DNA of 47,948 bases, taken from assembly GCA_025351645.1 (NCBI GenBank), contig JANXVN010000118.1, forward strand, positions 1 through 47,948, written 5' to 3'. Within the stretch, counting starts at the first letter, position 1; the number at the start of each line of letters is the position of its first letter. Shown one piece after another: positions 11,053 to 31,216 of the stretch. The notes beneath the pieces are model-generated. The model did no database searches. It had not been told where the DNA came from and saw only the letters and a list, made by a program, of their open reading frames with translations. The translations under genes and the position numbers were made by a program. The DNA comes from Ferruginibacter sp. GTDB taxonomy: Bacteria > Bacteroidota > Bacteroidia > Chitinophagales > Chitinophagaceae.

Positions 11053-14000
11053 CTATTTTTTTACTAGTTCCATAATAGTATTAAAGAGGTCTACTGCTTT
11101 AAAAGGCTTAGCTAAATAACCATTCATACCGGCCTTATAGCAATTTTCCATTTCGCCATACAATGAATAAGCTGTCATGGCAATGATGGGTATCTTTACT
11201 TCTGTGGTTTGTAAATTACGGATGGCTTTTGATGCGTTGATACCATTCATAACCGGCATTTGTATATCCATCAGTATAAGGTCGAAATGCTGCTGCTGCA
11301 CGGCTTCTACTGCTAAGGCGCCATTAATTACATGCTTTACTTTGAATCCTTTTTTTGCCAGCACTTTAGTAGCCAGCATGGCATTGACCATATTATCTTC
11401 AGCCAGTAAAATATGTACAGGGTTGTTGGTGTTGACACATAAAAAATCGGAGCTATCAATATTATTTTCCTCAGTACCATTTGTTGTTTCCCGGTATTTT
11501 TCAAACGGTAGGGTAAAATAAAATGATGTACCTATGCCAGGCCCGCTTTGCATAGATATTGAGCCTCCATAAAGCTCGATAATACTTTTAGTAATGCTTA
11601 AGCCTAGGCCAGTGCCGCCATACAGCCTTTCTGTATTTGTATTAGCCTGTGTAAAACGTTGAAATATAGTTGGCTGCTTATCTGGCGCAATACCAATGCC
11701 TGTATCTTTTATAGAAAAATAAATATAGTCTTTGGAGGTATCTGTACCTGTTGCCAGCCGGCATTCAATATCAATAAAACCTTTGTCGGTAAATTTTATA
11801 GCGTTACCAAATAAATTAATTATTACCTGGCTAAGCCGTAATTGGTCGCCTAAAACTTTTTTTGGCAAGGCATCATCAAAATGTATCCTTACCTCCAGCC
11901 CTTTTGTTTTAGCCCTGTGTTCCAGTATTATAACGGCATCTGTAATAATGCCAGCAACGTTTATGGGCATCATTTCCAATATAACATTGTTCGATTCTAT
12001 TTTTGAAATATCCAGTATATTATTGATGAGGGATAACAAACTTGCAGATGCGGTCCTAACAATATCCACATAACTGGATTGCTCTTTACTTAAATCCGTT
12101 TCTGCAAGTAGGTCTGTAAAGCCAACCACAGCATTGAGGGGTGTCCTAATTTCATGGCTCATGTTACTGATAAATTCGTCTTTTACTTTTAACGACCTTT
12201 CCACCATTTCGTTTGCGGCTAGCAGGTCTGTCTCTACTTTGTGCCTGCTGGTAATATCCATGCCAAAGCAAAGTAGGTACTCTCTGCCGCTTTTTTCTTT
12301 AAAGCGTTTGTTCATAATGCTGAACCATGATAATTGCCCGGTAGACGGGTTTTTCAGGCTTCCTTCAGACAATATTATTTCGCCTTCTTTAATGCTATCG
12401 AGGCGGCTAATGTTTCCTAAAAAAATATCATCATCACCTAAAGCCAGGCTTTTGGCAAAGGGCATTTCCATTTCATTATACGGGTAATAACATGAAAAAG
12501 TTTTGTTGGCCAGTACAATTTGCCGTTGCTCGTTCAACATAAATAAAAGGTTAGGGCTATTATCAATAATCTGGCGGATGAATTGTTGTTGTTTTTCAAT
12601 TTCCATTTGTGCCTTTACAGAGTCGGTAATATCAATGGCGCTTGCAATTACATAAGGTTTGTTACCGTTATTGGCGTACACAGTGTTTTGATAAAGCCAT
12701 ATACGCTTGTTGCCGGATTTTGTAATAATCTTCATCCTTCCATTCACGGTTTCATTTTGGTGTATAGCTTTAATGTAGGCATCAAAATATCCATACAAAC
12801 CGGCTTCAATAATAAGCTTTAAGCTTTGGCCTACCACTTCCTTTTTTGTATAACCGCTAGCTTTTTCCGCCGCAATATTCATATCGAGCATCGTGCCATC
12901 CATATCGTGCACGCATAAAATAGTTTGTGTGTTGTTTAGCACAACAGCCTTTTCTTCTTCGCTTTTCTTTAAGGCCAATGCTACAAGTTTGGTATCTGTA
13001 ATATCCTGTACTGTACCAAAAGTACCCATGTAGTTACCTTCCGCATCCAGCTTAATTGTATTGCTTGAAATCATGTAATGCACCTGCCCTTGAATAATGT
13101 AGCGGTATTCAACTTCCACTCTTGAAGAAGCCGCTCGGCCCGTACTCATTTTTTGCTGTATATTACTAATATCTTCTGCTGGTATATTGGCATGAACTTG
13201 CTCTAAGGTTACTTCGCCTTCCAAAGGCAAATGATATAATTGCTTTAATTCTGCAGATAGGGTGAGCGTATCATTAATGTCCATTTCCCAGGCGCCTAGC
13301 CTTGCAATTTGCATAGCTTGCTGCAATTTATTTTTACTTACTAGCAACTCTCCTTGTAATGTTTTTCTTTCAGTAATATCCTGCTGCATGGCTAAAAATT
13401 GGTAAGGCTTTCCATCGGTGCCTGGCAAGGGTACAATGGTTGTATCTACCCAATAAGTTTGCCCGTTAGCTGTACAGCCTGCTAATTCCCCCGTCCAGGT
13501 ATGGCCGGCTAATAATAAGTCCCATATTGGCTTTTCTATATTATGGCCTGGCGTGCTACCGCTTATAGTCTGATAATCTATACCAATTATATTTTCTTCC
13601 GCCAGTTTACGGATGTCGCAAAACTTTTTATTTACCTGTGTAATTTTTCCTTTTGTGTTAAAGATGACCACAATAGCAGCCTGGTCTAATGCAAACTTAT
13701 AATTCGCCACTTCTTTGTACAATGCCGCAATGGCAATTTCCTTTTCTTTGCGGCTGCTGATATCATTTTGAAGGGCAATAAAATTAGAAACTTTACCACT
13801 ATCATCGAGTATTGGCTTAATACTTAACGATTGCCAGATGGTAGTGCCATTTTTGTGGTAGGTTAATAATTCTTCTACTACATCTTCGCCTTGTGTTAAC
13901 CTATCAATTATATTTCTGGCGACAGTTTTATCTGTTAGGGGGCCACGTAAAAAGTTGGTTAAATCTTTGCCTTTTGCCTCATCTTGCGTATGGCCATGCG

Positions 14001-14394
14001 TATTGGTGAAGCCATTGTTTACCCATACTATTTTGCCACTGGCATCGGTAATTACAATTGATTCGTTTACCTGAGCTATTATTTTGCCCAGTAATTTTAT
14101 CTGGTTATCGGCAGCGGTATTTATAATTTGTTCTTTAGACAGGCTATGCTTTATTTTGCGGTTAAACAGTACCAGCTGCTCTCGCCTAAAACCAATAAAA
14201 CAAAAAAGTGCACTTAGGTATAAGGGAGAAAAAACAATAATTATAAAGTCGGGCGCATATTCAAATATATGGAACCACGGACCATTAAAGCCACTTTCAT
14301 AATTAAGGAAAGCACCAATCATTATAAGGGTAATACCTAGTATAAAACCTGCGGTAGTATATACAATTACACCATGGTAAGTATCTTTTTTCAT
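11053..14394 (-). CDS. Hybrid sensor histidine kinase with five PAS domains and a receiver
   Basis: A 1,113-residue membrane-bound sensor. Two TM segments lie at about 10-30 and 47-69. Five PAS/PAC units follow at about 100-215, 228-342, 352-468, 478-592 and 603-716. The dimerisation domain has the phospho-His H747 in SHEIRTPLNAVVGF. The ATPase domain has the N-box around N864, DTGIGI near 897 and GGTGLGL near 926. The C-terminal receiver has E999/D1000, phospho-Asp D1043 (LMDIQMP) and K1096. All key residues are intact. Many PAS units suggest integration of several cytoplasmic signals (ligand, redox or light); the ligand is unknown. It is likely co-transcribed with the Hpt gene, giving a His-Asp-His relay. 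Confidence 0.93.
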   Translation of the reverse strand: MKKDTYHGVIVYTTAGFILGITLIMIGAFLNYESGFNGPWFHIFEYAPDFIIIVFSPLYLSALFCFIGFRREQLVLFNRKIKHSLSKEQIINTAADNQIKLLGKIIAQVNESIVITDASGKIVWVNNGFTNTHGHTQDEAKGKDLTNFLRGPLTDKTVARNIIDRLTQGEDVVEELLTYHKNGTTIWQSLSIKPILDDSGKVSNFIALQNDISSRKEKEIAIAALYKEVANYKFALDQAAIVVIFNTKGKITQVNKKFCDIRKLAEENIIGIDYQTISGSTPGHNIEKPIWDLLLAGHTWTGELAGCTANGQTYWVDTTIVPLPGTDGKPYQFLAMQQDITERKTLQGELLVSKNKLQQAMQIARLGAWEMDINDTLTLSAELKQLYHLPLEGEVTLEQVHANIPAEDISNIQQKMSTGRAASSRVEVEYRYIIQGQVHYMISSNTIKLDAEGNYMGTFGTVQDITDTKLVALALKKSEEEKAVVLNNTQTILCVHDMDGTMLDMNIAAEKASGYTKKEVVGQSLKLIIEAGLYGYFDAYIKAIHQNETVNGRMKIITKSGNKRIWLYQNTVYANNGNKPYVIASAIDITDSVKAQMEIEKQQQFIRQIIDNSPNLLFMLNEQRQIVLANKTFSCYYPYNEMEMPFAKSLALGDDDIFLGNISRLDSIKEGEIILSEGSLKNPSTGQLSWFSIMNKRFKEKSGREYLLCFGMDITSRHKVETDLLAANEMVERSLKVKDEFISNMSHEIRTPLNAVVGFTDLLAETDLSKEQSSYVDIVRTASASLLSLINNILDISKIESNNVILEMMPINVAGIITDAVIILEHRAKTKGLEVRIHFDDALPKKVLGDQLRLSQVIINLFGNAIKFTDKGFIDIECRLATGTDTSKDYIYFSIKDTGIGIAPDKQPTIFQRFTQANTNTERLYGGTGLGLSITKSIIELYGGSISMQSGPGIGTSFYFTLPFEKYRETTNGTEENNIDSSDFLCVNTNNPVHILLAEDNMVNAMLATKVLAKKGFKVKHVINGALAVEAVQQQHFDLILMDIQMPVMNGINASKAIRNLQTTEVKIPIIAMTAYSLYGEMENCYKAGMNGYLAKPFKAVDLFNTIMELVKK

Positions 14395-19537: not shown

Positions 19538-20560
19538 TTATACAGTTTTTTTATTGCCTGTTATACTGCCCAGCACATACCGGTTAGTAAAATCCCAACT
19601 TTTTAATAGCCATACCAACCCCATTGTAAGTAATAATACCACCACAAAAATACCGCTTGCCTGCAGGTTGGTAACATCATGCTGGCCCTTATTATACAGC
19701 ACCTTATAAACGCCAGCAATTATTAAAGGATGGTAAAGGTATATGCCTAATGATTGCTCATTAACAAGCAAAAACCATTTGTTTTGAAAATAGTTTTTTG
19801 GAGCAATATACAGCAGGATAAATATTACCAAACAGGTATTAAAAAGCAAGTAGGGCCAAACAATGTATATGCTCGATGAATTTTTAAGTACTAAAAATAC
19901 CAACACTGCAATGGCAATCGCCTGTATACTAATAAGCTGTATAGAAGTTATATTTATCTGCACTATTTTATTGCGTATGCAAAAGGCTAATATAAAAAAG
20001 AAGAGGTAGGCCACCATTCTTTTATCCCCCAGCCAATACAGGGGAAGTTCAGTAACCGTAAGCGGTGTATCCCTATACACATTGTACCACACAATTGTTA
20101 TGATAGCTGTAGCTAACAATACAATCCACGCCGGTATTTTATGCTTTATTATTGTATAACAAATAGTGGCACCAATAAGGTAAGAGGGTATGTACCATAA
20201 ATGATAGTATGGATAAATGATGTCTGCAAACTGTAGCCGTATGTTACGTCCTTCACTAAACCTAAGCGGCATAAAAATAAGCGATGCAGCTATCCATGGT
20301 AGTATAAGCCTATGCCAAAGCCTTTTCATATAACCCTTATAGCCATTTTTAAAGGCAGCCTCTTTCAATAAAAAACCACTAATGGCCATAAATAAAGGCA
20401 TGTGAAAAAAATACATAAAGTATAGCATTGTACTTGGTGGCAGGCAATGTGCAAACACTACCATTATTATTAGCAGCCCTTTTGCACCGTTTAAGCCGGG
20501 GTACATTTTTACCAGCTCTTTAGTTGGAGGCATACTTATTTGCGTTGCACAACTATTCAT
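19538..20560 (-). CDS. Membrane acyltransferase (acyltransferase family 3)
   Basis: A 340-residue protein with about ten TM segments. The N-terminal GLNGAKGLLIIMVVFAHCLP contains the motif region with the His typical of acyltransferase-3 (OafA/NodX-like) enzymes. The next segment reads FFHMPLFMAISGFLL. These proteins move acetyl or other acyl groups across the membrane onto polysaccharide sugars. It is the last gene of the minus-strand EPS operon and its start overlaps the preceding glycosyltransferase by eight bases. With the soluble hexapeptide acetyltransferase at 18044, it suggests at least two acylation steps. Confidence 0.88.
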   Translation of the reverse strand: MNSCATQISMPPTKELVKMYPGLNGAKGLLIIMVVFAHCLPPSTMLYFMYFFHMPLFMAISGFLLKEAAFKNGYKGYMKRLWHRLILPWIAASLIFMPLRFSEGRNIRLQFADIIYPYYHLWYIPSYLIGATICYTIIKHKIPAWIVLLATAIITIVWYNVYRDTPLTVTELPLYWLGDKRMVAYLFFFILAFCIRNKIVQINITSIQLISIQAIAIAVLVFLVLKNSSSIYIVWPYLLFNTCLVIFILLYIAPKNYFQNKWFLLVNEQSLGIYLYHPLIIAGVYKVLYNKGQHDVTNLQASGIFVVVLLLTMGLVWLLKSWDFTNRYVLGSITGNKKTV

Positions 20561-21758
20561 TTAATAACTGTTTTTGGGTGAGGTAAATTTTTTCAATGCA
20601 GGCTTGCCATGTGTGCCCTTTGGCAAAAGCAACCGCATCGGCAACAGCCTCTTCATCTTTGGGCAACAATGCTTTTTCAATAGCTTGTATGTAGGTATCC
20701 GGGCTATTTGCTAATTGCACATGTGGCAAAAACATTTGCATGGCAAGCGTATTTGTTGCCACAACAGGCTTGCCCATTGCTAAGTATTCATCAATCTTTC
20801 TTGGGTAATTGCCAATGGTCAATGGGTTAACAAGCTGGGGGTTCAGGCATACATCGAGGTGCTGTATATAGGCAGGCAATAACGATGGTTTTTTAGTTCC
20901 TAAAAAATGTACGTTAGGCAAATTGTGAAGTTTGCTTTGTTCAAATAATATTTCTTCCGGGCCAATATATACCCAGTGCCAATTTTTATTTCTTAGGGCT
21001 AAGGTTTCCAGCAGGGCAATGTCTAAGCGCTCGCCTGTTAAATAGCCGGTATAGCCAATGCGGGGCGTTGGTATGGCCATCATGTCAATAGGTAGCGGAT
21101 ATCTTTTTGCCGCATCAAATATCTCTAGTTCGCAGCCCTGGCCAACATTAATGCTTTCTGGGTTGTATTCTTTTGCATATTCGGCCAGGTAACCAGAATT
21201 TGTAAAAATAGCATCGGCTTTACTAATGGTTGCTGGTTCTAGCCTGCTGCCATGAAATTTAAAGTAGGGATGTTCAACAAGGTTATCCCTTATGTAATAA
21301 AAGCTTAACAATGGGCGCAGGTATTTTTTAGTATGCACGCCGGTATACATCTGGCTATCGTTCAGTACAATGCATTTATCTTTTTGCCAGCCTACTTTAA
21401 GGATAGCCCTTTTTAGGCTTTTAAAAAACCACCTGGCATTTTTTTCATTTAATTGGGTATGCAAATAAATATTTTTTATCCAGCTAATAGAAATGCTGAT
21501 AGTTGCCGGGGTATGCACCCATATATTGTGTGCGGCGCGCCTGGTATTTTTACCAAAGCCAATGGCCAGTTTTAAACGGTGCCTGCCATGGGCATGCCTT
21601 ATCTCTTTAAGGGCAGTCTTAACATCCATTGGTGGGTTAACATACATCACTGGCCTATCTTTGCTAAGCTCAAGGGCAAGGTTACGGGCATTGCTGCCTA
21701 ACCCAAGTGCCCATTGTTGCTGTGCAATTATTATGTAAGGCTCATTTCCTTTTTTCAT
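20553..21758 (-). CDS. GT-B glycosyltransferase (TuaH-like)
   Basis: A 401-residue GT-B fold protein. The N-terminal half opens with YIIIAQQQWALGLGSNARNLA and continues with DRPVMYVNPP. The C-terminal half holds PRIGYTGYLTGERLDIALLE, WVYIGPEE, NVHFLGTKKPSLLPAYIQHLDVCLNP and PRKIDEYLAMGKPVVATNT. That pattern fits glycosyltransferases related to teichuronic-acid TuaH. It would add one sugar during EPS repeat assembly. It is separated from the upstream GT2 by 88 bases, the longest gap in the operon, which holds an inverted CCTTAT/ATAAGG. It overlaps the acyltransferase gene. Confidence 0.85.
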   Translation of the reverse strand: MKKGNEPYIIIAQQQWALGLGSNARNLALELSKDRPVMYVNPPMDVKTALKEIRHAHGRHRLKLAIGFGKNTRRAAHNIWVHTPATISISISWIKNIYLHTQLNEKNARWFFKSLKRAILKVGWQKDKCIVLNDSQMYTGVHTKKYLRPLLSFYYIRDNLVEHPYFKFHGSRLEPATISKADAIFTNSGYLAEYAKEYNPESINVGQGCELEIFDAAKRYPLPIDMMAIPTPRIGYTGYLTGERLDIALLETLALRNKNWHWVYIGPEEILFEQSKLHNLPNVHFLGTKKPSLLPAYIQHLDVCLNPQLVNPLTIGNYPRKIDEYLAMGKPVVATNTLAMQMFLPHVQLANSPDTYIQAIEKALLPKDEEAVADAVAFAKGHTWQACIEKIYLTQKQLLNE

Positions 21759-21846
21759 ATTGTTTGTTGTTAACTCTTAAACCATTCCTTATGCCCCATA
21801 TAAGGCAAAAGATTGCGGGTAAAAAAATAATGTTCCAGGGCATAGG

Positions 21847-23031
21847 TTATTGGTTGTTGGTTGAAGTATCGCCATGAGGCGTATGTATAAATTGATTGCG
21901 GGCTTTGCCACTATGCAGCAAGGCCTTTACCATTGATAAAAGTGCTGCGGGTATTTGTAAAAATGCGAATAGTAATTTTTTATTGTACCAGCTATAAGGG
22001 ATACCCATAAACAAGCTTGCTGCCAAAGCTATGGTTAGGCCCATGCTAAAGAACATAAATTGATGAGAGAAAATAAATACCCATACCAACCAAAGCAGCA
22101 AAGTAGCTACCAGCATCACCCTTGGCAGTAGGTAGGTTTGAACCGCTTTGTCAAAAAAAGCAATATTGCCCTTAAATAATTGTACCCATCCTTCTATAAA
22201 ATATTTTTTAAAAAACTCTGCCTGCATGGCAAGCCACCTGCTTCTTTGCTTGCTGAATACATACGTGCCTGCAACCTTTTCATCATACACATATTCACCA
22301 TCCAAAAAGGCTATTTTTTTTCGCTGCCTCAAAAGGCGAAACTCCAGTTCCTTGTCTTCTCCCGCGGTATCGCCAATATTTTGTAGCAGTGAAATAAACA
22401 AGGCCGCATCGAACGCCATACCGCTGCCTATTAATGCACAGGGCAAGCCGGCAGCAACATGCCCGCGGCGAAAAATATGGTTATTGACCTCTTCTGTACA
22501 AGCATCTAAAAAGGCAAAGGGCGATGCCATATTTTTAGCGGTACGATGCCCTTGTACTGCCAGGTAGCCTTGCTCAAAAGCATTGTTCACTGCGTTTAAA
22601 AAGCCCGGTGCCATATGGTTGTCAGCATCCAGTATAAGCACTATATCAACAGGGTCGTTGGCCATTACCTTTATGGCCTGGTGCAATGCTTTGCCCTTGG
22701 TACTTTTTTCAAACTTTACCTGTATTATCTTAATTGGCAGCCTATGCAGCGCTGCCAGGGTTTGTTCGCTGAAAGAGTCTGCAATTACCACCACTTCAAA
22801 AAGTTCTGCCGGGTATATCTGGCACAAAGCATCTTTTGCCGTAGCTATAATCACTGCATCTTCTTTATAGCCGGGTATAAAGATGCGTATCTTCCTAAGC
22901 GTTTTAGCGGGCGGAAAAATAGTTGGCTTGCGTAGTTTTGCTGCCACCGAAAAAAATAATAAATACGTTACCTGCCAGGTAAGAAAAACAAGTATGCAGT
23001 ATTGAAGCAGCGTGCCAATTTGTTGTAACAT
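21847..23031 (-). CDS. Membrane family 2 glycosyltransferase with QxxRW motif
   Basis: A 394-residue processive-type GT2. It has an N-terminal TM at about 8-30, a GT-A domain with RIFIPGYKEDAVI, VLILDADNHM (DxD) and AGEDKELEFRL, the diagnostic QRSRWLAMQ (QxxRW) motif, and three or four TMs at about 290-375. This layout matches cellulose/hyaluronan-synthase-like enzymes, though such proteins in Wzy loci often add single sugars. Glu-Asp-rich GEDKE may supply the catalytic base. It starts 11 bases after the previous GT2 stop, within the EPS operon. Confidence 0.88.
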   Translation of the reverse strand: MLQQIGTLLQYCILVFLTWQVTYLLFFSVAAKLRKPTIFPPAKTLRKIRIFIPGYKEDAVIIATAKDALCQIYPAELFEVVVIADSFSEQTLAALHRLPIKIIQVKFEKSTKGKALHQAIKVMANDPVDIVLILDADNHMAPGFLNAVNNAFEQGYLAVQGHRTAKNMASPFAFLDACTEEVNNHIFRRGHVAAGLPCALIGSGMAFDAALFISLLQNIGDTAGEDKELEFRLLRQRKKIAFLDGEYVYDEKVAGTYVFSKQRSRWLAMQAEFFKKYFIEGWVQLFKGNIAFFDKAVQTYLLPRVMLVATLLLWLVWVFIFSHQFMFFSMGLTIALAASLFMGIPYSWYNKKLLFAFLQIPAALLSMVKALLHSGKARNQFIHTPHGDTSTNNQ

Positions 23032-23042
23032 GGGTAGTAGTT

Positions 23043-23987
23043 TTATGCGCTATCAGGGGTAAGCTGATGCACCAGGGATGAGGAATGTATTAACGGTTCT
23101 TTATTAGCCTTGTTACGCAGGTTCCAACGCAAGGCAAGCGCTATTGCTTTGCTATGCTGCCATTGCCCCTGCAATGCATGTTTGCAAATATGTGCCGGGG
23201 TAGATACAGATATAAAAAATAAGGCAGCAATAAGGTAACGCCAGCCTTTATAATTCCTTCGGATAAATAAAAGCCTATTCCGGTATAAATAAGCTGTTTT
23301 AAAGGGAGAGCCAATGCCAGTTGAAACAGATTCTTTATGGAACACTTCTGCACTGCCCACGTAGCATACCTTAAAGCCTGATTGCTTAAACCTTGCAGCC
23401 CAATCCAGTTCTTCATAATATAAAAAGAAGGCCTCGCTCATTATGCCCACTTGCTCCAGTAACCGCCTGGGTATCATCATGGCCGCGCCATTTGGCTGGT
23501 CTGTTTGCCTGGTATCATTAAATTGCCCTTCGTCTTTTTGCAGGTAGCCTATGTTATGGCTGCGGCTTGTTAATGGGTGCAGCCCTATGCTGCCTGCATA
23601 TTGTATGGTATCCGGCAGCGAATAGTATTTTATTTTTGGGCAGGCAATAGCGCATGTTGCATCTTGCTGAAGGTAAGCTACCAATTTACTCACCAGGCCA
23701 GGCGTTACTTCAGTATCGTTATTCAATAAAAAAATGTATTCTCCTTTTGCAAAATGAAGCCCTATATTATTGCCGCCTGCAAAGCCAACGTTATGTGGCG
23801 AGCTAATGTGTTTTATAAATGGAAATTGTTTTTTTAGGTTGATAGATGAATGTTTGGGCGAAGCGTTGTCCACAACAATTACCTCCCAGTTAGGATAATC
23901 CAATAATGATAAAGACTTAAGCAGCGAGGCTGTAACGGCAGGGGTATCGTAATTAATAGTAATGATGGATACTAAGGGCGTTTTCAT
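23043..23987 (-). CDS. Family 2 glycosyltransferase (rhamnosyltransferase-like)
   Basis: A 314-residue GT2. The start reads VSIITINYDTPAVTASLLKSL. The fold continues with VVDNASPKHS, GFAGGNNIGLHFAKGEYIFLLNNDTEV (metal-binding NND), a GAAMMIPR stretch and FFLYYEELDWAARFKQSGFKVCYVGSAEVFHKESVSTG. This set is typical of WbbL/rhamnosyltransferase-like enzymes. A hydrophobic C-terminal segment at about 248-268 may anchor it to the membrane. Its ATG overlaps the Wzy stop by four bases, showing translational coupling. The sugar donor is not provable from sequence. Confidence 0.88.
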   Translation of the reverse strand: MKTPLVSIITINYDTPAVTASLLKSLSLLDYPNWEVIVVDNASPKHSSINLKKQFPFIKHISSPHNVGFAGGNNIGLHFAKGEYIFLLNNDTEVTPGLVSKLVAYLQQDATCAIACPKIKYYSLPDTIQYAGSIGLHPLTSRSHNIGYLQKDEGQFNDTRQTDQPNGAAMMIPRRLLEQVGIMSEAFFLYYEELDWAARFKQSGFKVCYVGSAEVFHKESVSTGIGSPFKTAYLYRNRLLFIRRNYKGWRYLIAALFFISVSTPAHICKHALQGQWQHSKAIALALRWNLRNKANKEPLIHSSSLVHQLTPDSA

Positions 23988-25435
23988 GGTAATGATATTT
24001 TAGGTACGGGCTTATCGTCCCACCGTGGGCTCATCCATATTAACGCCCAGCTTACATAAACTATTGCGGAAGATGGCATAGTATTTAAAACTTCGTTGCC
24101 GTAACTACATAATAAAATACCTGTGGAGCCTGCACACAAGGCAGTTAGCTGGTTCCGTAGTATAGCATTGTTTGTTTGCCAGATGATACCTATGCTTTTA
24201 CCCAATATATAAAGCATTATGCCAAACCATATTATAAAACCAACAATGCCATACATAGCCCATATTTTTACGAATAAGCTATCTGGCGGTATGGTGGAAA
24301 TAAATTTAGTTGAGTTATACTTAAGGCCCCAAGTGCCTATGGTGCCAACGCCCGCACCAAAGGGCTTATTGCTTAAATAATCCCTTAGTATAGCCTGGTT
24401 GTTTAGCCTAACCATAAGTGAAGCATCGTTAGGGTCCAGCGATGTACGCAGCCTGGATATTTGCTGGTTGCCACTACCTGCATGCGTGTACTTTAAAATG
24501 CTAAAAAACATCATCCCGCATAAAGCGCCTGCTATTAATATGCTACCTTTTTTGCTAAGCAATAGATAAATAAATAGGCCGCCTACCAGCCCAAATAAAG
24601 CGCCCCTTGTGCCTGATAGCAGCATGCCGTACACCAGTAACAGCCCAGCGATAGCATACCAACATTTTTTTGTCGTGGTATAAGGGCCTAAAGCCAGTAT
24701 GATAGCAACAACTGCAATATGTGCCTGCGATGCGCCAAATTGCGCTGCTTCTGAATAAAAAGAAAATATCCTAAGCTTGCCAAATAGCAGGTGTGTTTTT
24801 TTTGCACCAGCTTCAAGCCACCTGTTTTCTGCCGCATCTACACCCAAAAATAATTGCTTAACGCCATACAATGCACCGGCAACCGAAAGCAATATAATAA
24901 TATTTAAAAACAGGTTTATATCAACTTTTTTATTAAAAACCATAAAAACCAGGGGGATAGTTAGCACCCAATAAAGCGAAGCAGAGCGCATTTCATAAAA
25001 CCAGCCTTCAATGCTCGGCTTATCTGGGTTAACAATTTGCAGTAGGGTGATGGCTAACCATGCAACGGCCATCCAAACAAGGCTGTTATTTAAATGCCGC
25101 AGGCGGTACCTGCCACTTCTATGAAAAATAATGCCCAGCCATGCAAGCAGCAATAGCCCATCTTGCCCAAGCCCAAATTGTACGCCATCAATATGCTTGC
25201 CAAGGGTTGAGTTTAAAAAACAGTACACTAAAAAAGTGAGTAAGGTAATGCGTGGCTGGAGGAATGCAATTATCAAATAACCAATTACAAATGGCGATAT
25301 TATTAATAAAGTTGCAACAGGCATGCCTGCTACTGCTATTATCCACCCAAAAAAGAGTGACAATATAAGGCCAGTGCCAACCCATAAGCTGGTTGTAACA
25401 GTAGTTTGCCTATCATAAAATAAATTTTTTTCCAT
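23984..25435 (-). CDS. O-antigen ligase/Wzy-type polymerase
   Basis: A 483-residue polytopic membrane protein with about 12 TM segments and a large external loop, the hallmark plan of Wzy/WaaL proteins. The Wzy_C-family phrase GMLLSGTRGALFGLVGG lies near the middle, and KPFGAGVGTIGTWG sits in the periplasmic loop. In a locus with a flippase and a Wzz-like protein, a polymerase role (joining EPS repeat units) is more likely than ligation to lipid A core, because no core biosynthesis genes are present. Wzy and ligase share the fold and are hard to separate by sequence. Confidence 0.85.
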   Translation of the reverse strand: MEKNLFYDRQTTVTTSLWVGTGLILSLFFGWIIAVAGMPVATLLIISPFVIGYLIIAFLQPRITLLTFLVYCFLNSTLGKHIDGVQFGLGQDGLLLLAWLGIIFHRSGRYRLRHLNNSLVWMAVAWLAITLLQIVNPDKPSIEGWFYEMRSASLYWVLTIPLVFMVFNKKVDINLFLNIIILLSVAGALYGVKQLFLGVDAAENRWLEAGAKKTHLLFGKLRIFSFYSEAAQFGASQAHIAVVAIILALGPYTTTKKCWYAIAGLLLVYGMLLSGTRGALFGLVGGLFIYLLLSKKGSILIAGALCGMMFFSILKYTHAGSGNQQISRLRTSLDPNDASLMVRLNNQAILRDYLSNKPFGAGVGTIGTWGLKYNSTKFISTIPPDSLFVKIWAMYGIVGFIIWFGIMLYILGKSIGIIWQTNNAILRNQLTALCAGSTGILLCSYGNEVLNTMPSSAIVYVSWALIWMSPRWDDKPVPKISLP

Positions 25436-25454: not shown

Positions 25455-26774
25455 TTACCTAAAACGTACAATGCCTTTTTTTACAAATGAAAAACTATAC
25501 TGGTACACTTGGCCCCATATATTGCCATTGGCCAATATGCCCGTTCGGGCTAACATATACCACCCAAGTATGGCGCCCGTAGCCACATTTAACACGGAAG
25601 CAAATGCCACCCATATTAGTTGGTGCGTAAGGGTAATGGCCAATATATCTGCTACTATATTTACGGTTGCCATTACAAATACCTTTTTAAAATTCATTGC
25701 AGGGCGTTGCAGCGCATCCAGGCTAATGCCCGTCATCCTGTCTGTTGGCAGTAGCAAGGCATATAAAATAAACATCCTGAAAATAGGGGTGGTATCAGCA
25801 TATTTTGCGCCGCCGATAACCAATACGATGTAAGGTGCAACAATGAAAGCAATTATAAGCGCAGGTATGTACAGCAGGTATGCCCAGCTTAAATATTCTA
25901 TAAAGCTATTTTTAAAAGCACTATGGTCGCCGTCGTTATTTTTGGCCGCTAATTGCGGAAACGCAGTGGTGCTAAGGCTGCGGAGCGGTATTTCAAAAAG
26001 CTCAGTTAATTTCAATGGTACGGCGTAACTGGCAACAGCAAGCGGCCCCATAAGCATGCCGATTAAAAAAGTATCTGCGCTTTTTAACAGGTTGGTAGTT
26101 GCTAAGGTTGCCAGCGTGTATTTTATCAGCCCAAACAAAGCTTTTGCCTCCGCTACTGTTTTGTGCATTATTTGTAATGGGTTTGTTTTTTTACATAATA
26201 GTACCATCACCAATAAAAAAGATGTAAAACATAAATGCACGGTAGCAAAATTTTGCAGGCTGCCCCCTTTATAAAATGCATATAAAGCAATTAATAACGC
26301 ATTTACGCTTTGCGATACACGCAGCCATAAAAGAAACCGCAGGTCTTGCCGGGCAACTGCTGTTGCTTCTGCAATATGCAACGGCAGGGTAACAAGGCCT
26401 AACAATGCATACCAGCCACAAAATACCTGTATGCCCGGCTGATGTGTAAACACGCCAGAAAAATAAAGTATTGCTAAAATAACCGACAAGGAAAAAGAAA
26501 GTATTGCGCCAAGCCAGTAAGCGCTACCAGTAATATTTAGTAATTGTGCTTTGCTGCTGCCTGCCGCTCGCATTACCAGGGCTGTTTGCAGGCCGCCAGA
26601 TTTTATCATTTCGAACAATACCACTGCAGCCATATAAATAACATATTGCCCCAGTACCATTGGTGCTGCAGTACGTACCAACAACATAAAAGACAGTACC
26701 CCAATAACAGCAGGCACCAACTGGCTTGCAAAAGCCAGCACCTGTATATTGGCCTGTTTATTATTTGGTAGCAT
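25455..26774 (-). CDS. Wzx-type polysaccharide flippase (MOP superfamily)
   Basis: A 439-residue protein with about 12-14 TM segments and the size of Wzx/RfbX flippases. The opening ASQLVPAVIGVLSFMLLVRTAAPMVLGQYVIYMA matches the first two helices of polysaccharide-export MOP proteins. The later phrase LTELFEIPLRSLSTTAFPQLAAKN is also typical. It should flip lipid-linked repeat units to the periplasmic face for polymerisation. It starts 36 bases after the Wzz-like stop and ends 19 bases before the Wzy start. Confidence 0.88.
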   Translation of the reverse strand: MLPNNKQANIQVLAFASQLVPAVIGVLSFMLLVRTAAPMVLGQYVIYMAAVVLFEMIKSGGLQTALVMRAAGSSKAQLLNITGSAYWLGAILSFSLSVILAILYFSGVFTHQPGIQVFCGWYALLGLVTLPLHIAEATAVARQDLRFLLWLRVSQSVNALLIALYAFYKGGSLQNFATVHLCFTSFLLVMVLLCKKTNPLQIMHKTVAEAKALFGLIKYTLATLATTNLLKSADTFLIGMLMGPLAVASYAVPLKLTELFEIPLRSLSTTAFPQLAAKNNDGDHSAFKNSFIEYLSWAYLLYIPALIIAFIVAPYIVLVIGGAKYADTTPIFRMFILYALLLPTDRMTGISLDALQRPAMNFKKVFVMATVNIVADILAITLTHQLIWVAFASVLNVATGAILGWYMLARTGILANGNIWGQVYQYSFSFVKKGIVRFR

Positions 26775-26810: not shown

Positions 26811-28874
26811 CTAAAATTCAATATTTACTGGACGTTTTTTATACCAGCGAGGCTTGTTTTCTTTGTCGGGGGCTTCACCAATATACTCTTTGGTATAGGT
26901 TGCATCAACACCATTTAATATTGTTTGCAAAGGTTGCTGCTGGGTGGTGGTAAAGGTGCTTAAAAGCTGTTTGTCTATTGTCGTCCAGGTGCGGTTAGCC
27001 CGGCATACTAAAAAAATATGTTGTAAAGATGGCAGCATGCCCGGCGTTATGGCGAGGTTATCCAACGCAGGAAATTCTATTAAAATAATTTGTGTGCCTG
27101 CCGCTGCAATAATTAATTTTTCTTTATGCCAGGGCTGTATCTCAACCTTATAATTTAGGGCAGTCAATTTATTATGCAATATATCAATAATGGTAGATTT
27201 TCCCTCTCGCTGCTGCATGCTTATAAAACCAATTGTTACAGGTATCCCTTTATCAATAAGGGTAGCCAACAGTTGCTGCGTTAGCCTAAAATTAGCTTTG
27301 GCAATAAATGGCGGGCTTTCGTTTAGCAACGGGTAAATACCCAGTAATGGCAAGCCCATTAGCCTGTTTGCTTTTACCGGCTGCTGTACATTTTTATTAA
27401 GCAGGGCTTTTGCAAGCACAAAGGCAAGCATCATAATAGCACCCGCTAAAAACCCCACTACAATTTGTATGGCCCTTTTTGAGGGGTTGGGTTTTAAAGG
27501 CAAAAACGGAGGGTCAACTATAGTAAGCTTAGAGGTTAGCTCATTGTTTTGCTGGGCAAGCCTTGCAAGGCTAAGGCCGTGTAGCAATTCCAGGTAAGCC
27601 TGCTCGGCCACGTTTATCTGGCGCTCTACTTTTTTAAGTATTGCCCCTAAAGGAGCAAACCGGTGGTACTCTGCTATAAATTCTTTTTTGCGCTTATCCA
27701 TTACTGTAAGCCTTGCCTTGCTTTGCTCTAGCAAAAGGGTTGTCTTAAGCCATTCATCCAGCACTTCTTTTGTAGGTATGCCGTTGGGCATATTGCTTTC
27801 GGTATATAGGTTATTTAAGGTTGCACGCATATCTTTTTCTACGCCTTCGGCAGAGGCTTGCAAACTATCTGCCATTTTTTTAGCAGTAGCATCCGTTGGC
27901 TTGTTTACTATCTTGCTTAATTCTACGGATGTATAAATGCCTGCTAATTTTTCTCTTTGTTTTACAACATTTGTACCATACTGTATTTGGTAAGTGCGCC
28001 CTTTTATATTGTCATCTACTTTTGCCAGTGTTTTGCTGTTGGCCATTTTTTCCATCTCTAGCCCATGGTTCTGCGCATCAAGATTTTCTTTTTCGTTGGC
28101 AACAGCTTTTGTTTGCTCGTAATAGTTGATGATGTCGTTCCGCTTGTTAAAATCTAAAAAAACTTGTTCTATAGAATCGAGCCGTAGGTAAGCATTGTGT
28201 GTCTCTTTTTCAAAGTAGGCAATTACCGACCCTGTTTGCCCTTCTTTTAAAAGCCGGTGCTTTTTCATAAAAATTGTTGTAAGCAGGTCAAGCGTATTCT
28301 TACAAATGGCTGCATCTGTTGTTTCGTAAGATATTTTTACAACATCGCTGGAACTTACCCTTGCTGCCTTGATGTTTTGTAATGCATTAAAAGAATAGTA
28401 AGGGTTGTCAGAATTTATAAGCTTGTAGAGTGCGTTATCGCCATTGGCTTCCAGGTAACTGGTAATAGCAGCTATGGTTTCGTAAAGCGTATTTTTTACT
28501 ACAACATTCCTGGTGCTATCGGGCACTAATTTTTTTAAGTCGCTAAATGCGCCCCAGGATAAAAGGGTAGGGTCATGCTTTTTAAGCAGTAGATGCTGGG
28601 CCAGCAAGCCGATAACCACTTCTTGTTTGGTATCCCTTGAAAGTATCAGTGTAAGCAGGTTATCGAATGCATTGCCGGTAGCAAAAAAATCTGCTTTTGT
28701 ATCGCCATTAAGGCTATATCCAGATGCTATGCCTGTGTATATTACCGTTTCAGAAGAGAATATTTTTTTTTCTCCTCTTGTAAAATAATAAATTGAAAAT
28801 GCCAGCACCAAAGGAAATAACAATAGCCATTTGATATTTTTGAGCAGCAGTTTTATAAAGTGTATAAAATTCAT
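26811..28874 (-). CDS. Wzz/BY-kinase-like EPS co-polymerase with degenerate ATPase domain
   Basis: A 687-residue polysaccharide co-polymerase. TM1 lies at about 14-30. A long periplasmic coiled-coil region (about 200-430) follows, then the proline-rich PPFLPLKPNPSKRA before TM2 (about 470-490), as in Wzz. The cytoplasmic tail resembles a bacterial tyrosine kinase: FISMQQREGKSTI is a Walker-A-like loop. However, the Walker A' acidic motif is not visible, the Walker B place reads ILIEFPAL (usually ILIDTPP), and the C-terminal tyrosine cluster is absent. It probably controls chain length and export without normal autophosphorylation. Its ATG overlaps the TolC-like stop by four bases. Confidence 0.82.
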   Translation of the reverse strand: MNFIHFIKLLLKNIKWLLLFPLVLAFSIYYFTRGEKKIFSSETVIYTGIASGYSLNGDTKADFFATGNAFDNLLTLILSRDTKQEVVIGLLAQHLLLKKHDPTLLSWGAFSDLKKLVPDSTRNVVVKNTLYETIAAITSYLEANGDNALYKLINSDNPYYSFNALQNIKAARVSSSDVVKISYETTDAAICKNTLDLLTTIFMKKHRLLKEGQTGSVIAYFEKETHNAYLRLDSIEQVFLDFNKRNDIINYYEQTKAVANEKENLDAQNHGLEMEKMANSKTLAKVDDNIKGRTYQIQYGTNVVKQREKLAGIYTSVELSKIVNKPTDATAKKMADSLQASAEGVEKDMRATLNNLYTESNMPNGIPTKEVLDEWLKTTLLLEQSKARLTVMDKRKKEFIAEYHRFAPLGAILKKVERQINVAEQAYLELLHGLSLARLAQQNNELTSKLTIVDPPFLPLKPNPSKRAIQIVVGFLAGAIMMLAFVLAKALLNKNVQQPVKANRLMGLPLLGIYPLLNESPPFIAKANFRLTQQLLATLIDKGIPVTIGFISMQQREGKSTIIDILHNKLTALNYKVEIQPWHKEKLIIAAAGTQIILIEFPALDNLAITPGMLPSLQHIFLVCRANRTWTTIDKQLLSTFTTTQQQPLQTILNGVDATYTKEYIGEAPDKENKPRWYKKRPVNIEF

Positions 28875-29629
28875 TTTTGTTGCTTAATCAATGAAGAAAG
28901 ATCCGTGCCGGTATAAGCTTCCAGTTGAAGGAAATTTGTTTGGAACCTGTTGATATATGTTTCCAGTTCCATAGATGCCTTATTAAGTATATCCTGGATG
29001 CTTGATATTTCCATTGTATTATTTTGCCCCAGTATAAAATTCTTTTCGGCCATGCTATAGTTAACTTCGGCTCCCTGCTTGTTTTTGCTGCTGAGGCCAA
29101 TGAGCTTGTACGATAGCTTAAGGTCCTGGTACAGCCTTATCACTTCTTGCTTAACAAACAGGTTTATTTTTTGGTGTTCGCTGGTATTTGCCTTTATTAA
29201 TACTTCGTTTGCACGAAGCAAGCTTTTACGGGTTATAAGCTGGCTGATAGGTAACTGCAAGCCAACGCCAAAACTATAATACCCTGTTTGTGCTTTTGTA
29301 AATGCCGTATTGCCCGGCATCCCGCTTTGATTATTAATGGCAGAAAAGTTGGTGCCATAGTTATAAGAGCTAAGTAAAGACAGCGCATTAAAAATAGCAT
29401 TCTTGCTTACTTTGGCCATATTTTTAGCATAGTCAACCGTATAGCCCACCCTGCGGGCTTCTGGTGAAAATTTAATGGCAGAGTCTATTAGTTGGTGTAG
29501 CAAATCATCTGTAGCAAATGTTTTAGTAAGCACACTATCAACTTCAATAGCTGATGCTTGTGCGGGGCAATTTTGTATAATCAATAAAGCAAGGAGCAGC
29601 AAGAAGGTATAAGGATTAAGGAGATTCAT
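28871..29629 (-). CDS. Half-length TolC-like outer-membrane protein of the EPS operon
   Basis: A 252-residue secreted protein with a signal peptide ending near NCPAQAS, then helical OEP-type sequence: ARRVGYTVDYAKNMAKVSKNAIFNALSLLSSYNYGTNF, GVGLQLPISQLITRKSLLRANE and YSMAEKNFILGQNNTMEISSIQDILNKASMELETY. That corresponds to roughly one OEP unit, about half of a usual TolC (450 residues). No SLBB/Wza-type exporter is in the operon, so this may be the outer-membrane partner of the Wzz-like protein it overlaps. Truncation is possible, but both ends look natural and the reading frame is clean. Confidence 0.78.
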   Translation of the reverse strand: MNLLNPYTFLLLLALLIIQNCPAQASAIEVDSVLTKTFATDDLLHQLIDSAIKFSPEARRVGYTVDYAKNMAKVSKNAIFNALSLLSSYNYGTNFSAINNQSGMPGNTAFTKAQTGYYSFGVGLQLPISQLITRKSLLRANEVLIKANTSEHQKINLFVKQEVIRLYQDLKLSYKLIGLSSKNKQGAEVNYSMAEKNFILGQNNTMEISSIQDILNKASMELETYINRFQTNFLQLEAYTGTDLSSLIKQQK

Positions 29630-29638
29630 TTATTTAAT

Positions 29639-30808
29639 TTAAACGTTAGCGGATTGAAACAATGCCGGTATGGTCCTGATAAGCAGCTTAGCATCGTTTA
29701 AAAGGCTATGTGTGCGGGCATATTTATTATCAAGGTTTAGCCTTTCTTCTTCACTCATTTCTCCGGCGCCTCTTTTTTCTACCTGCCAAAGCCCTGTAAT
29801 GCCCGCTGGTGCAATAAAACGTGCCGCATATTTATCAGTGGTTATTTTATCAGCTTCGTAAATGGGTAATGGCCTATTGCCTATAATGCTCATGTCGCCA
29901 ATTAAAACATTCCAAAGCTGGGGCAGCTCATCTATACTGGTATTGCGGATAAAGTTTCCAATGCGGGTAATACGAGGGTCGTCTTTTATCTTAATAAAGG
30001 CTGCGCCTGTGTTGCTGCTTTTTTGGTGCTTATATAAGTTTTCGCATATTACTTTATTATCTGCATATAAAGCGTTTATACAGCCGGTGCCTGCTTTAAA
30101 GCAGGCACCGCATAGTTGTTTTACGGCTGGGGCAACAGGTGTGCTTTTTTTTGCGCTATTGTACTGGTTAAGGTGGCTAAGGCTTTCCAGCTTTTTATCC
30201 GCTCCAAAAACCATAGAACGAAATTTATAAAACTTAAATATCTTATATCCGGCACCTACCCTTAACGAATAATAAAATACCGGCCCGGCACTGCCTAGTT
30301 TTACCAGCACAGCTATAATTAAAAATAATGGGCTTAATAGCAACAAGGCAAGGCTAGAAAAAAAGATATCGAATATTCGTTTGCTAAAAGGCATTTTTTT
30401 ATGCTGTACCGTTATAGTATTTGCAAAGGAGGCTAAGTGGTTTTCTATTAAATACGGCACCCTTAGCTTTATTGCGGCAGTGTTTATTGGCTTTGAAAAT
30501 ATATCTGTAATCCCTCCCGTCATAGCTAGCTTGCGTTGGGCATTATTTATAGTATTCAATATAAGCATAAAAGGTATGCCGCCGTGCCCAAATCTTATTA
30601 GCGTGTGGCGCAATGCTGTGCCATTAGGGCCCTTTAGCTCATCATCTGCAATAATAGCTTGCGGTACGTGGTGGTTTAAAATGGCATTGTGCAAGTCAAT
30701 GCCATTAGTATAAACGCTCACGGCAAACATGCCTTCAAAAGCATTGGTAATGCTTTTTACAATTACCTTGTTATGTGTTATAAGCGCAATGCCAGGTTTG
30801 GTTTTCAT
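29639..30808 (-). CDS. Initiating sugar transferase with N-terminal receiver-like domain
   Basis: A 389-residue fusion. Residues 1-120 look like a response-regulator receiver: D55/D56 at the phosphorylation strand, T86 after strand 4, and K106 in FSKPIN. The acidic pocket near residue 12 is THNK instead of DD. From about 138 comes a polyprenyl-phosphate sugar-1-phosphate transferase: a reentrant/TM helix (FDIFFSSLALLLLSPLFLII), KFYKFRSM, DPRITRIGNFIRNTSIDELPQLWNVL with the D293-E294 catalytic dyad, and GDMSIIGNRP. A 45-residue insert carries C233, C236, C243 and C255. It should load the first sugar onto undecaprenyl phosphate. It lies 12 bases after the stand-alone receiver gene. Confidence 0.88.
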   Translation of the reverse strand: MKTKPGIALITHNKVIVKSITNAFEGMFAVSVYTNGIDLHNAILNHHVPQAIIADDELKGPNGTALRHTLIRFGHGGIPFMLILNTINNAQRKLAMTGGITDIFSKPINTAAIKLRVPYLIENHLASFANTITVQHKKMPFSKRIFDIFFSSLALLLLSPLFLIIAVLVKLGSAGPVFYYSLRVGAGYKIFKFYKFRSMVFGADKKLESLSHLNQYNSAKKSTPVAPAVKQLCGACFKAGTGCINALYADNKVICENLYKHQKSSNTGAAFIKIKDDPRITRIGNFIRNTSIDELPQLWNVLIGDMSIIGNRPLPIYEADKITTDKYAARFIAPAGITGLWQVEKRGAGEMSEEERLNLDNKYARTHSLLNDAKLLIRTIPALFQSANV

Positions 30809-30820
30809 AATAGGTTGGTT

Positions 30821-31216
30821 TTATAATTTGCCTGAGCGGCGTAACATGCTGTTTATCCTTGCGCCTAATTCTTTAGGGTTAAATGGCTTGGCAATATAAT
30901 CGTCTGCGCCTGCTTCCAGGCAACGTATCTTATCATCCGTCTTATCATTGGCAGATAATATTATAATTGGTATATGCTTTAAAAATCCACTGCTCCTAAC
31001 CTGGTTAACAAACGCATTGCCATCCATTTCCGGCATATTAATATCAGCAATAATAATATCGGGTATATAGCCAGCCTGCATCCATGATAAAGCTTCTTTT
31101 GCATTGCTGCCTGTTTTAACAATAAAAAGGTCTTTAAAATAATGCTGGAGTATTAACAATATTGATGCTTCGTCATCTATTGCTAGCATGGATAAAGCAG
31201 GGTTTCTATTAGGCAT
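30821..31216 (-). CDS. Single-domain response regulator (CheY-like)
   Basis: A 131-residue receiver with all canonical residues: D14/D15 in AIDDEAS, phospho-Asp D58 (IIADINMPEMDG), S88 and K110 in AKPFNP. There is no output domain, so it should act by protein contact or as a phosphate-relay carrier. As the first gene of the EPS operon, 12 bases before the receiver-fused sugar transferase, it is well placed to set EPS priming. It could receive phosphate from the kinase/Hpt pair at 10576-14394, but that is a guess from proximity. Confidence 0.92.
   Translation of the reverse strand: MPNRNPALSMLAIDDEASILLILQHYFKDLFIVKTGSNAKEALSWMQAGYIPDIIIADINMPEMDGNAFVNQVRSSGFLKHIPIIILSANDKTDDKIRCLEAGADDYIAKPFNPKELGARINSMLRRSGKL

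Follow-up and report, generated by a model that had tools for sequence, protein, structure and literature searches.

The locus described here raises the question of how the first step of an exopolysaccharide pathway may be controlled when the priming enzyme carries a receiver-like domain in front of its catalytic part and four cysteines within it. The window (the whole stretch of DNA analyzed) comprises 47,948 nucleotides of contig JANXVN010000118.1 of a Ferruginibacter sp. An earlier note on this DNA had described a gene at positions 29639-30808; the open reading frame is real, with the strand corrected to minus (30808 to 29639), and the plus strand shows many stops in the frame read. The 12-base gap which the note gave between this gene and that of a stand-alone receiver (31216 to 30821) is correct according to the ORF coordinates, and the 3' neighbor, a gene of an outer-membrane export family, lies 9 bases away. 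Since the gene is followed on the same strand by genes for a Wzc-like protein, Wzx, Wzy, three glycosyltransferases and an acyltransferase (Table 1), its 389-residue product, a monotopic priming sugar-phosphate transferase (PGT), is taken as the priming enzyme and is most likely the initiating enzyme of a Wzx/Wzy-type exopolysaccharide operon. The whole genome contains four PF02397 matches. The window also shows, at 36449-41248 on the minus strand, a gene encoding a 1599-residue protein with fn3 and Laminin_G_3 domains and a weak Por secretion-tail match.

Table 1. Features of the exopolysaccharide locus, with positions in the window and the basis of each assignment.
Feature	Position	Strand	Basis
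Hybrid histidine kinase, 1113 aa (PAS-HisKA-HATPase-REC), several PAS domains, inside the glycosyltransferase region	11053..14394	-	Domain search
Glycosyltransferases (two GT2-type, one GT1-type) and an acyltransferase for repeat-unit assembly	19538..23987	-	Pfam
Wzy_C O-antigen ligase/polymerase family protein	23984..25435	-	Pfam
Wzx-type flippase (Polysacc_synt_3)	25455..26774	-	Pfam
Wzc-like chain-length determinant	26811..28874	-	Pfam GNVR below cut-off; TIGR03007 E 3e-10, below cut-off
OEP family (outer-membrane efflux/export) protein, 252 aa, next in operon	28871..29629	-	Pfam
Priming sugar-phosphate transferase (monotopic PGT), 389 aa, with N-terminal pseudo-receiver and four-Cys insert	29639..30808	-	ORF, Pfam, AlphaFold2, PDB matches
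PGT, catalytic C-terminal half, residues 269-389, with invariant D293-E294 (aligned with PglC 93-94) and DPRIT	29642..30004	-	Alignments, VIA-align
PGT, four-Cys insert at the mobile-loop tip (by alignment), residues 217-268; codons C233 30110-30112, C236 30101-30103, C243 30080-30082, C255 30044-30046	30005..30160	-	Alignments, PglC position
PGT, predicted long helix, residues 141-172, with S159-P160 aligned with PglC Ser23-Pro24	30293..30388	-	AlphaFold2, VIA-align, alignment
PGT, predicted pseudo-receiver, residues 1-125; T11/H12 in place of the acidic pair, L84 in place of Ser/Thr, D55 and K106 kept	30434..30808	-	AlphaFold2, VIA-align, alignment
Stand-alone receiver, 131 aa, intact quintet D14 D15 D58 S88 K110, 12 bases upstream of the PGT gene; proposed phospho-partner	30821..31216	-	ORF, Pfam, alignment

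The catalytic part matches Pfam Bac_transf (PF02397) over residues 143-384, covering positions 1-178 of the 179 of the profile (E 2.5e-57, 193.7 bits with a cut-off of 27). AlphaFold2 models residues 139-386 as a PglC-like monotopic PGT, and VIA-align superposes the model on PglC 8e37 with a Z of 20.3 and an rmsd of 2.2 Å over 177 residues. Full-profile homology and a PglC fold with the Ser-Pro motif and the catalytic Asp-Glu place the protein in PF02397, and its predicted activity is most likely the transfer of a sugar-1-phosphate to undecaprenyl phosphate. In a 39-row alignment, which contains the window and 38 of the 41 relatives found by a contig scan (L038, L040 and L052 were omitted as near copies), P160, D293 and E294 are invariant and S159 is conserved in at least 90% of the rows. 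The Ser-Pro motif corresponds to that of PglC described in PMC10519829, and the helix that contains it is predicted to be the re-entrant membrane helix. The TIGR03025 (EPS_sugtrans) threshold was not reached (233.4 versus 295.55 bits), the best stretch being positions 240-442 of the 445 of the profile. The full-length AlphaFold2 model of the PGT has a pTM of 0.52.

From sequence, the fused receiver is uncertain, since the Pfam Response_reg match on residues 10-116 is weak and below the cut-off (21.6 versus 30.2 bits). In the AlphaFold2 model, residues 1-123 form five strands (6-10, 29-33, 51-55, 80-84 and 102-105) that alternate with five helices, with pLDDT block means of 82-94 for residues 1-120. 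The best superposition by VIA-align was with the response regulator 2qxy (Z 18.1, 1.8 Å rmsd, 118 residues), with many further receivers behind it, and the matches listed for the whole PGT model are mostly to this part. The earlier assignment of residues 1-120 to a receiver thus agrees with both the model and the superposition, and the receiver fold of residues 1-123 is confirmed at the level of structure prediction.

The phosphorylation site of this domain is degenerate. Its quintet reads T11, H12, D55, L84 and K106 (THDLK) versus DDDSK in the stand-alone receiver. The description of D55/D56 and K106 as kept beside an altered acidic pocket holds for D55, which is the equivalent of the phospho-site, for K106 and for the pocket, now T11-H12, but not for D56, which aligns with a non-canonical position. 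Among the 55 aligned fused receivers of Cys-bearing relatives (the domain of a 56th, L059, was lost to the cutting rule, and a profile of Cys-branch fused receivers does find it), the full quintet is found in none, both pocket acids in one, the Asp in 16, the Ser/Thr in 21 and the Lys in 14. Neither D55 nor K106 is therefore a family trait, and the domain resembles a pseudo-receiver. An intact fused receiver was rejected as a candidate, because the pocket is lost in the window and in the Cys-bearing relatives. Another reading, that the fused receiver is still phosphorylated at D55 and that both receivers compete for one kinase, is suggested by the presence of D55 and K106 in the window; however, the Mg-binding acids and the Ser/Thr have gone and the family counts point the other way, so that we regard it as very improbable. 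These counts also do not support direct phospho-control of the fused domain, which the earlier note allows, and the signal should arrive through the neighboring stand-alone receiver instead.

The stand-alone receiver shows a full Pfam Response_reg match (E 4.9e-26) as well as the complete quintet. Relatives with both the Cys insert and a fused receiver were found at 56 loci, a count that leaves aside the window, its copies (L004, L005 and L078), the duplicates L076 and L077, and 11 other PGTs (L001, L002 and L026-L034). In 55 of these loci a stand-alone receiver gene lies directly upstream on the same strand; the exception is L082, for which the wider region (L099) shows a histidine kinase upstream in its place. 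The quintet is kept in 53 of the 55 neighboring receivers, and DEESK replaces it in the remaining two, L092 and L094. Good documentation of an inactive fused receiver beside an active separate one is limited to the Cys branch. Because an intact receiver is kept as a neighbor in nearly every locus, the suggestion that the two receivers may pair is the best reading of their adjacency.

Conservation within the fused domain is consistent with such a pairing. Among residues 2-125, only D102 (37/39), P107 (36/39) and R116 (38/39) reach 90% conservation in the 39-row alignment. In the 56 fused domains of the Cys branch, window included, D102 is found in 49 and R116 in 52; G63 (52), P79 (52) and F80 (50) are equally conserved, so the pair is not unique. 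By alignment anchored on the receiver-motif Lys-Pro and on the VIA-align range for 1zes, D102 and R116 correspond to D101 and R115 of PhoB, with the Lys-Pro motif numbered as in that protein. The fused domain would thereby keep the Asp/Arg pair central to the PhoB-type dimer face. In PhoB, activity is reduced by R115D and partly restored by D101R, according to PMC4511772; in MtrA, an Arg115-Asp101 contact is described across the same dimer face (PMC10609481), and in RegX3 a neighboring Asp-Arg pair stabilizes beta5/alpha5. A kept dimer face together with a dead pocket is what would be expected of a docking pseudo-receiver, and fits pairing with the phosphorylated neighbor or with itself. The D102-R116 pair may also act inside one chain or in dimers between fused domains. 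In the stand-alone receivers, the equivalent alignment shows D106 in 52 of 56, R120 in 40 of 56 and E116 in all 56; this invariant Glu, another position of the dimer face, is absent from the fused domain.

Homodimers would be equally consistent with the conservation of D102 and R116. The pseudo-receiver could then serve constitutively for homodimerization or positioning, as a counterpart to the cytoplasmic DUF found in large PGTs; in one of these, WbaP, the functional dimer is mediated by that DUF (PMC12802240). The adjacent receiver would in that case regulate another part of the cluster. We consider this possible but rather improbable, given that the receiver adjoins the PGT not only in the Cys loci but also in 17 of the 18 relatives that have an N-terminal domain and lack the Cys insert, even where other polysaccharide genes are rearranged, as in Cyclobacterium. 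Locus L013 begins 548 bases before the PGT frame, so the absence of a receiver there may reflect the end of the contig.

If the stand-alone receiver is the phospho-partner, a kinase would be expected to act on it, and the hybrid kinase of the window (Table 1) is a candidate. Its homologue in Limnovirga soli (L045; 34% identity over 659 residues) is encoded immediately upstream of the receiver gene and is likewise a candidate. A kinase-motif scan, with a crude motif that can miss kinases, found one in only 1 of 29 Cys loci of at least 15 kb, which weighs against this reading; histidine kinases near the PGT were found in L096, L097 and L099, which are outside that scan. Another neighbor is a DUF4842/DUF4114 gene (window positions 32221-34293, plus strand), divergent from the receiver gene and beginning 1 kb upstream of it. 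In L095 (6087-8120) and L097 (9512-11677) a homologue separates the receiver gene from that of the PGT, and blastp found none in the other loci compared. Its product is possibly a partner of the exopolysaccharide module.

The other particular feature of the enzyme is the insert located just before the DPRIT motif, which holds every cysteine of the protein (C233, C236, C243 and C255). All four are present in 37 of the 39 aligned homologues, which were not selected for cysteines, and absent in L069 and L070; since they are, in addition, the only positions with at least 90% conservation among residues 217-269, the set is more than chance. The spacing CX2C-X6-C-X11-C is found in 34 of 43 ORFs with the four-Cys pattern, X6 being replaced by X8 in seven and by X5 in two, with X11 throughout; these ORFs include two window copies, the spacings visible are limited by the pattern, and L006, L007 and L010, where the four Cys are present, were missed by it. 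In the insert alignments A2 and A3, drawn from these ORFs, the Cys are invariant by construction, and conservation was counted on the 39-row alignment only. The claim of a conserved four-Cys insert before DPRIT is supported by these counts, the spacing being near-constant across the homologues. With the receiver fold predicted as well, neither of the two outcomes that the earlier note named as refuting was seen.

Alignment of the PGT with PglC places residues 141-204 on chain positions 9-72 and residues 274-385 on 78-186. In the numbering of the VIA-align entry (139 = 3), chain positions are about 4 above entry numbers, and with this shift residues 205-273 replace about positions 69-73 of PglC. 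M199 falls on PglC Met63, just as S159-P160 falls on Ser23-Pro24 and D293-E294 on 93-94. The mobile loop of PglC comprises residues 61-81, with N70 at the top, and its closure follows the occupancy of the active site, as stated in PMC10519829; in predicted complexes, Met63 contacts uracil, and loop closure is tied to ligand binding (PMC12550135). Since the insert replaces a segment inside this loop, the Cys4 module would sit, by alignment, on the tip of the catalytic lid.

The nature of the module was analyzed with the isolated insert. Its model has a mean pLDDT of 61.6 and shows a short helix at CX2C, a hairpin and a helix after the last Cys. Foldseek with this low-confidence model gave 23 matches, all with E>2 and none at E<=0.001; 11 of these 23 non-significant matches are LIM/LMO2 domains, which are Zn proteins. 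One PDB sequence search with the insert gave a single match (E 0.5), and a second gave 13, the best (E 0.012) to protein A and without covering the Cys part. Pfam assigned no family to the insert of the window, and among 26 insert sequences it gave weak matches to the RecR Zn finger in two (best E 0.19) and a PHD-like Zn finger in one (E 0.0028). The redox or metal control suggested in the earlier note may exist. The spacing of the cysteines fits a Cys4 metal site, and it is this spacing, with the leaning of the weak matches, that favors a structural Zn, so that the probable role of the module is to give the loop its shape by holding a metal. Four conserved cysteines on a loop that closes over the active site, in an insert where no other position reaches 90% conservation, could also form a redox or Fe-S switch, with oxidation or loss of the cluster locking the loop and stopping priming. 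However, no computed result favors Fe-S over Zn, and the weak matches are to LIM/LMO2 domains and Zn fingers; we hold such a switch to be unlikely.

The contig scan, which picks up close relatives only, gave 41 loci, all in Bacteroidota by title (Cyclobacterium, Lunatimonas, Lunatibacter, Mucilaginibacter, Limnovirga, Parapedobacter and Bacteroidota MAGs), and further relatives were obtained from 98 genomes near the window and 395 genomes of the phylum. With an insert profile, for which up to 15 candidates per genome were scored, the insert was found in at least 17 of the 395 phylum genomes (own included) and at least 13 of 170 genera. The full-length form is patchily distributed in the genus: among the matches listed, those that begin no later than query residue 34 and extend to the C-terminus come from 6 of 59 genomes, own included, with two copies in G019. 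The genome of the window also contains a paralogue (L102:7132-8867, G000:C261), a Cys-less PGT whose upstream receiver is partly degenerate (GDDSK, below the Pfam cut-off) and whose N-terminal domain has no Pfam match, gives E 0.006 over part of its length with the Cys-branch receiver profile, and is not recognizable as a receiver.

The insert and the fused receiver are separable, since four relatives (L088-L091, open frames of 253-266 residues) carry the insert without the receiver. That both form one unit was rejected, both for these four and for the 18 relatives with an N-terminal domain and no insert. In the 17 of these 18 with an upstream receiver gene, the quintet is kept in seven; the other ten (L003, L011, L012, L015, L018-L021, L023 and L025, the last with partly masked sequence) have lost part of it, as if the receiver had turned structural. 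The Cys-branch receiver profile recognizes a receiver-like N-terminus in 8 of the 18 (E<=0.001, in some over part of the domain), and the N-termini of the other ten score no better than a classical PGT; in these, the term fused receiver is based on gene position and a forced alignment.

A tree of the catalytic domain (84 rows, quick method, SH-aLRT only) shows a single change of the Cys label (support 80) and the four receiver-less relatives as a clade inside the Cys branch (support 86). Duplicates L045 (Limnovirga soli) and L066 (Chitinophagaceae bacterium BSSC1), whose catalytic domains are identical to those of L077 and L076, respectively, from two genomes (G220 and G244) of the same family as the window, were dropped from the tree, as were L001, L028 and L030-L033, in which the motif was not found. 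Because the four are nested in the Cys branch, loss of the receiver is the simplest reading, with moderate support. Two of them (regions L095 and L097) still have a separate same-strand receiver gene about 2.5-2.7 kb upstream, with a DUF4842/DUF4114 gene in the interval. Region L096 shows two receivers about 2.5-3.2 kb past the 3' end of the PGT gene on the other strand and, at a distance of about 0.2 kb from the 5' end of that gene, the start of a divergent hybrid kinase gene; in L098, blastp found no receiver in 17 kb. Receivers still near the PGT in L095-L097 suggest that the company of the receiver gene partly outlasts the fusion.

The folds predicted, the place of the insert, the conservation of its cysteines, the loss of the phospho-site in the fused domain with its retention next door, and the gene linkage are the direct results; from them we infer a physical pairing and its effect on priming, the kinase, and the metal with its role. 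In the joint explanation that we prefer, to which we give about even chances, a histidine kinase, with that at 11053-14394 as candidate, would phosphorylate the stand-alone receiver, and the phosphorylated receiver would pair through the alpha4-beta5-alpha5 face with the fused pseudo-receiver. The pairing would turn priming on or off in the fashion of EpsW on EpsZ, with a fused domain as landing pad, and the Cys4 module on the mobile-loop tip would bind a metal (structural Zn being the likeliest) and shape or steer closure over the UDP-sugar site. A more ambitious proposal is that a Bacteroidota class of priming enzymes integrates two cytoplasmic signals with AND logic at the first committed exopolysaccharide step, through a metal- or redox-sensing Cys4 lid and a heterodimer of phospho-receiver and pseudo-receiver; we regard this as speculative and unlikely.

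In Wzx/Wzy pathways, the timing with which undecaprenyl phosphate is committed to a polysaccharide is largely an open question, and EpsW/EpsZ is the worked case of a receiver and a PGT found in the literature search. The relatives described here supply many natural receiver/PGT pairs in which the landing domain is built into the enzyme, in cultured Cyclobacterium, Lunatimonas, Mucilaginibacter and Limnovirga, and the sister branches without Cys insert or without receiver make both the control of priming by a receiver and the role of the mobile loop directly testable. The PGT with a pseudo-receiver and a Cys4 loop is a real, conserved and well-defined variant with a published regulatory analogue.

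A literature search of partial coverage turned up no description of a PGT with a Cys4 insert in its loop, nor of any PGT locus that pairs an intact with a dead receiver. Fusions of receiver and PGT have been mentioned in print, and the control of a PGT by a receiver has been published; the Cys4 loop module and the intact/dead pairing are, tentatively, apparently new. The catalytic part resembles Campylobacter concisus PglC (8e37 and 8g1n) in its fold, the Ser-Pro motif of the re-entrant helix, the Asp-Glu pair and the mobile loop; unlike PglC, which has neither a receiver nor a Cys insert at the loop tip, the PGT described here has both. The N-terminal domain is comparable to the atypical phosphorylation-independent response regulators (HP1043, 2pln, and 2hqo, which is so titled), whose receiver fold has a role that need not use phosphorylation. 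HP1043 is a transcription regulator, whereas the receiver-like domain here is fused to a membrane enzyme. Small monoPGTs that may include receiver domains, thus sharing this domain with the PGT, are mentioned, with reference to O'Toole et al. 2021, in the discussion of PMC12802240. The equivalog cut-offs of the Myxococcus xanthus pair were not reached either by the PGT for EpsZ (NF041877, 159.3 versus 800 bits) or by the stand-alone receiver for EpsW (NF041866, 66.5 versus 200 bits). In that system EpsW~P, a single-domain response regulator, binds and activates the initiating PGT EpsZ, according to PMC12802240 (2025). The locus would resemble it in having a stand-alone receiver that acts with the PGT initiating a Wzx/Wzy-type pathway and, by analogy, post-translational control of priming; however, EpsZ is a large PGT with a TM bundle and a cytoplasmic DUF, whereas the enzyme described here has a pseudo-receiver N-terminus and a Cys4 insert in its mobile loop.
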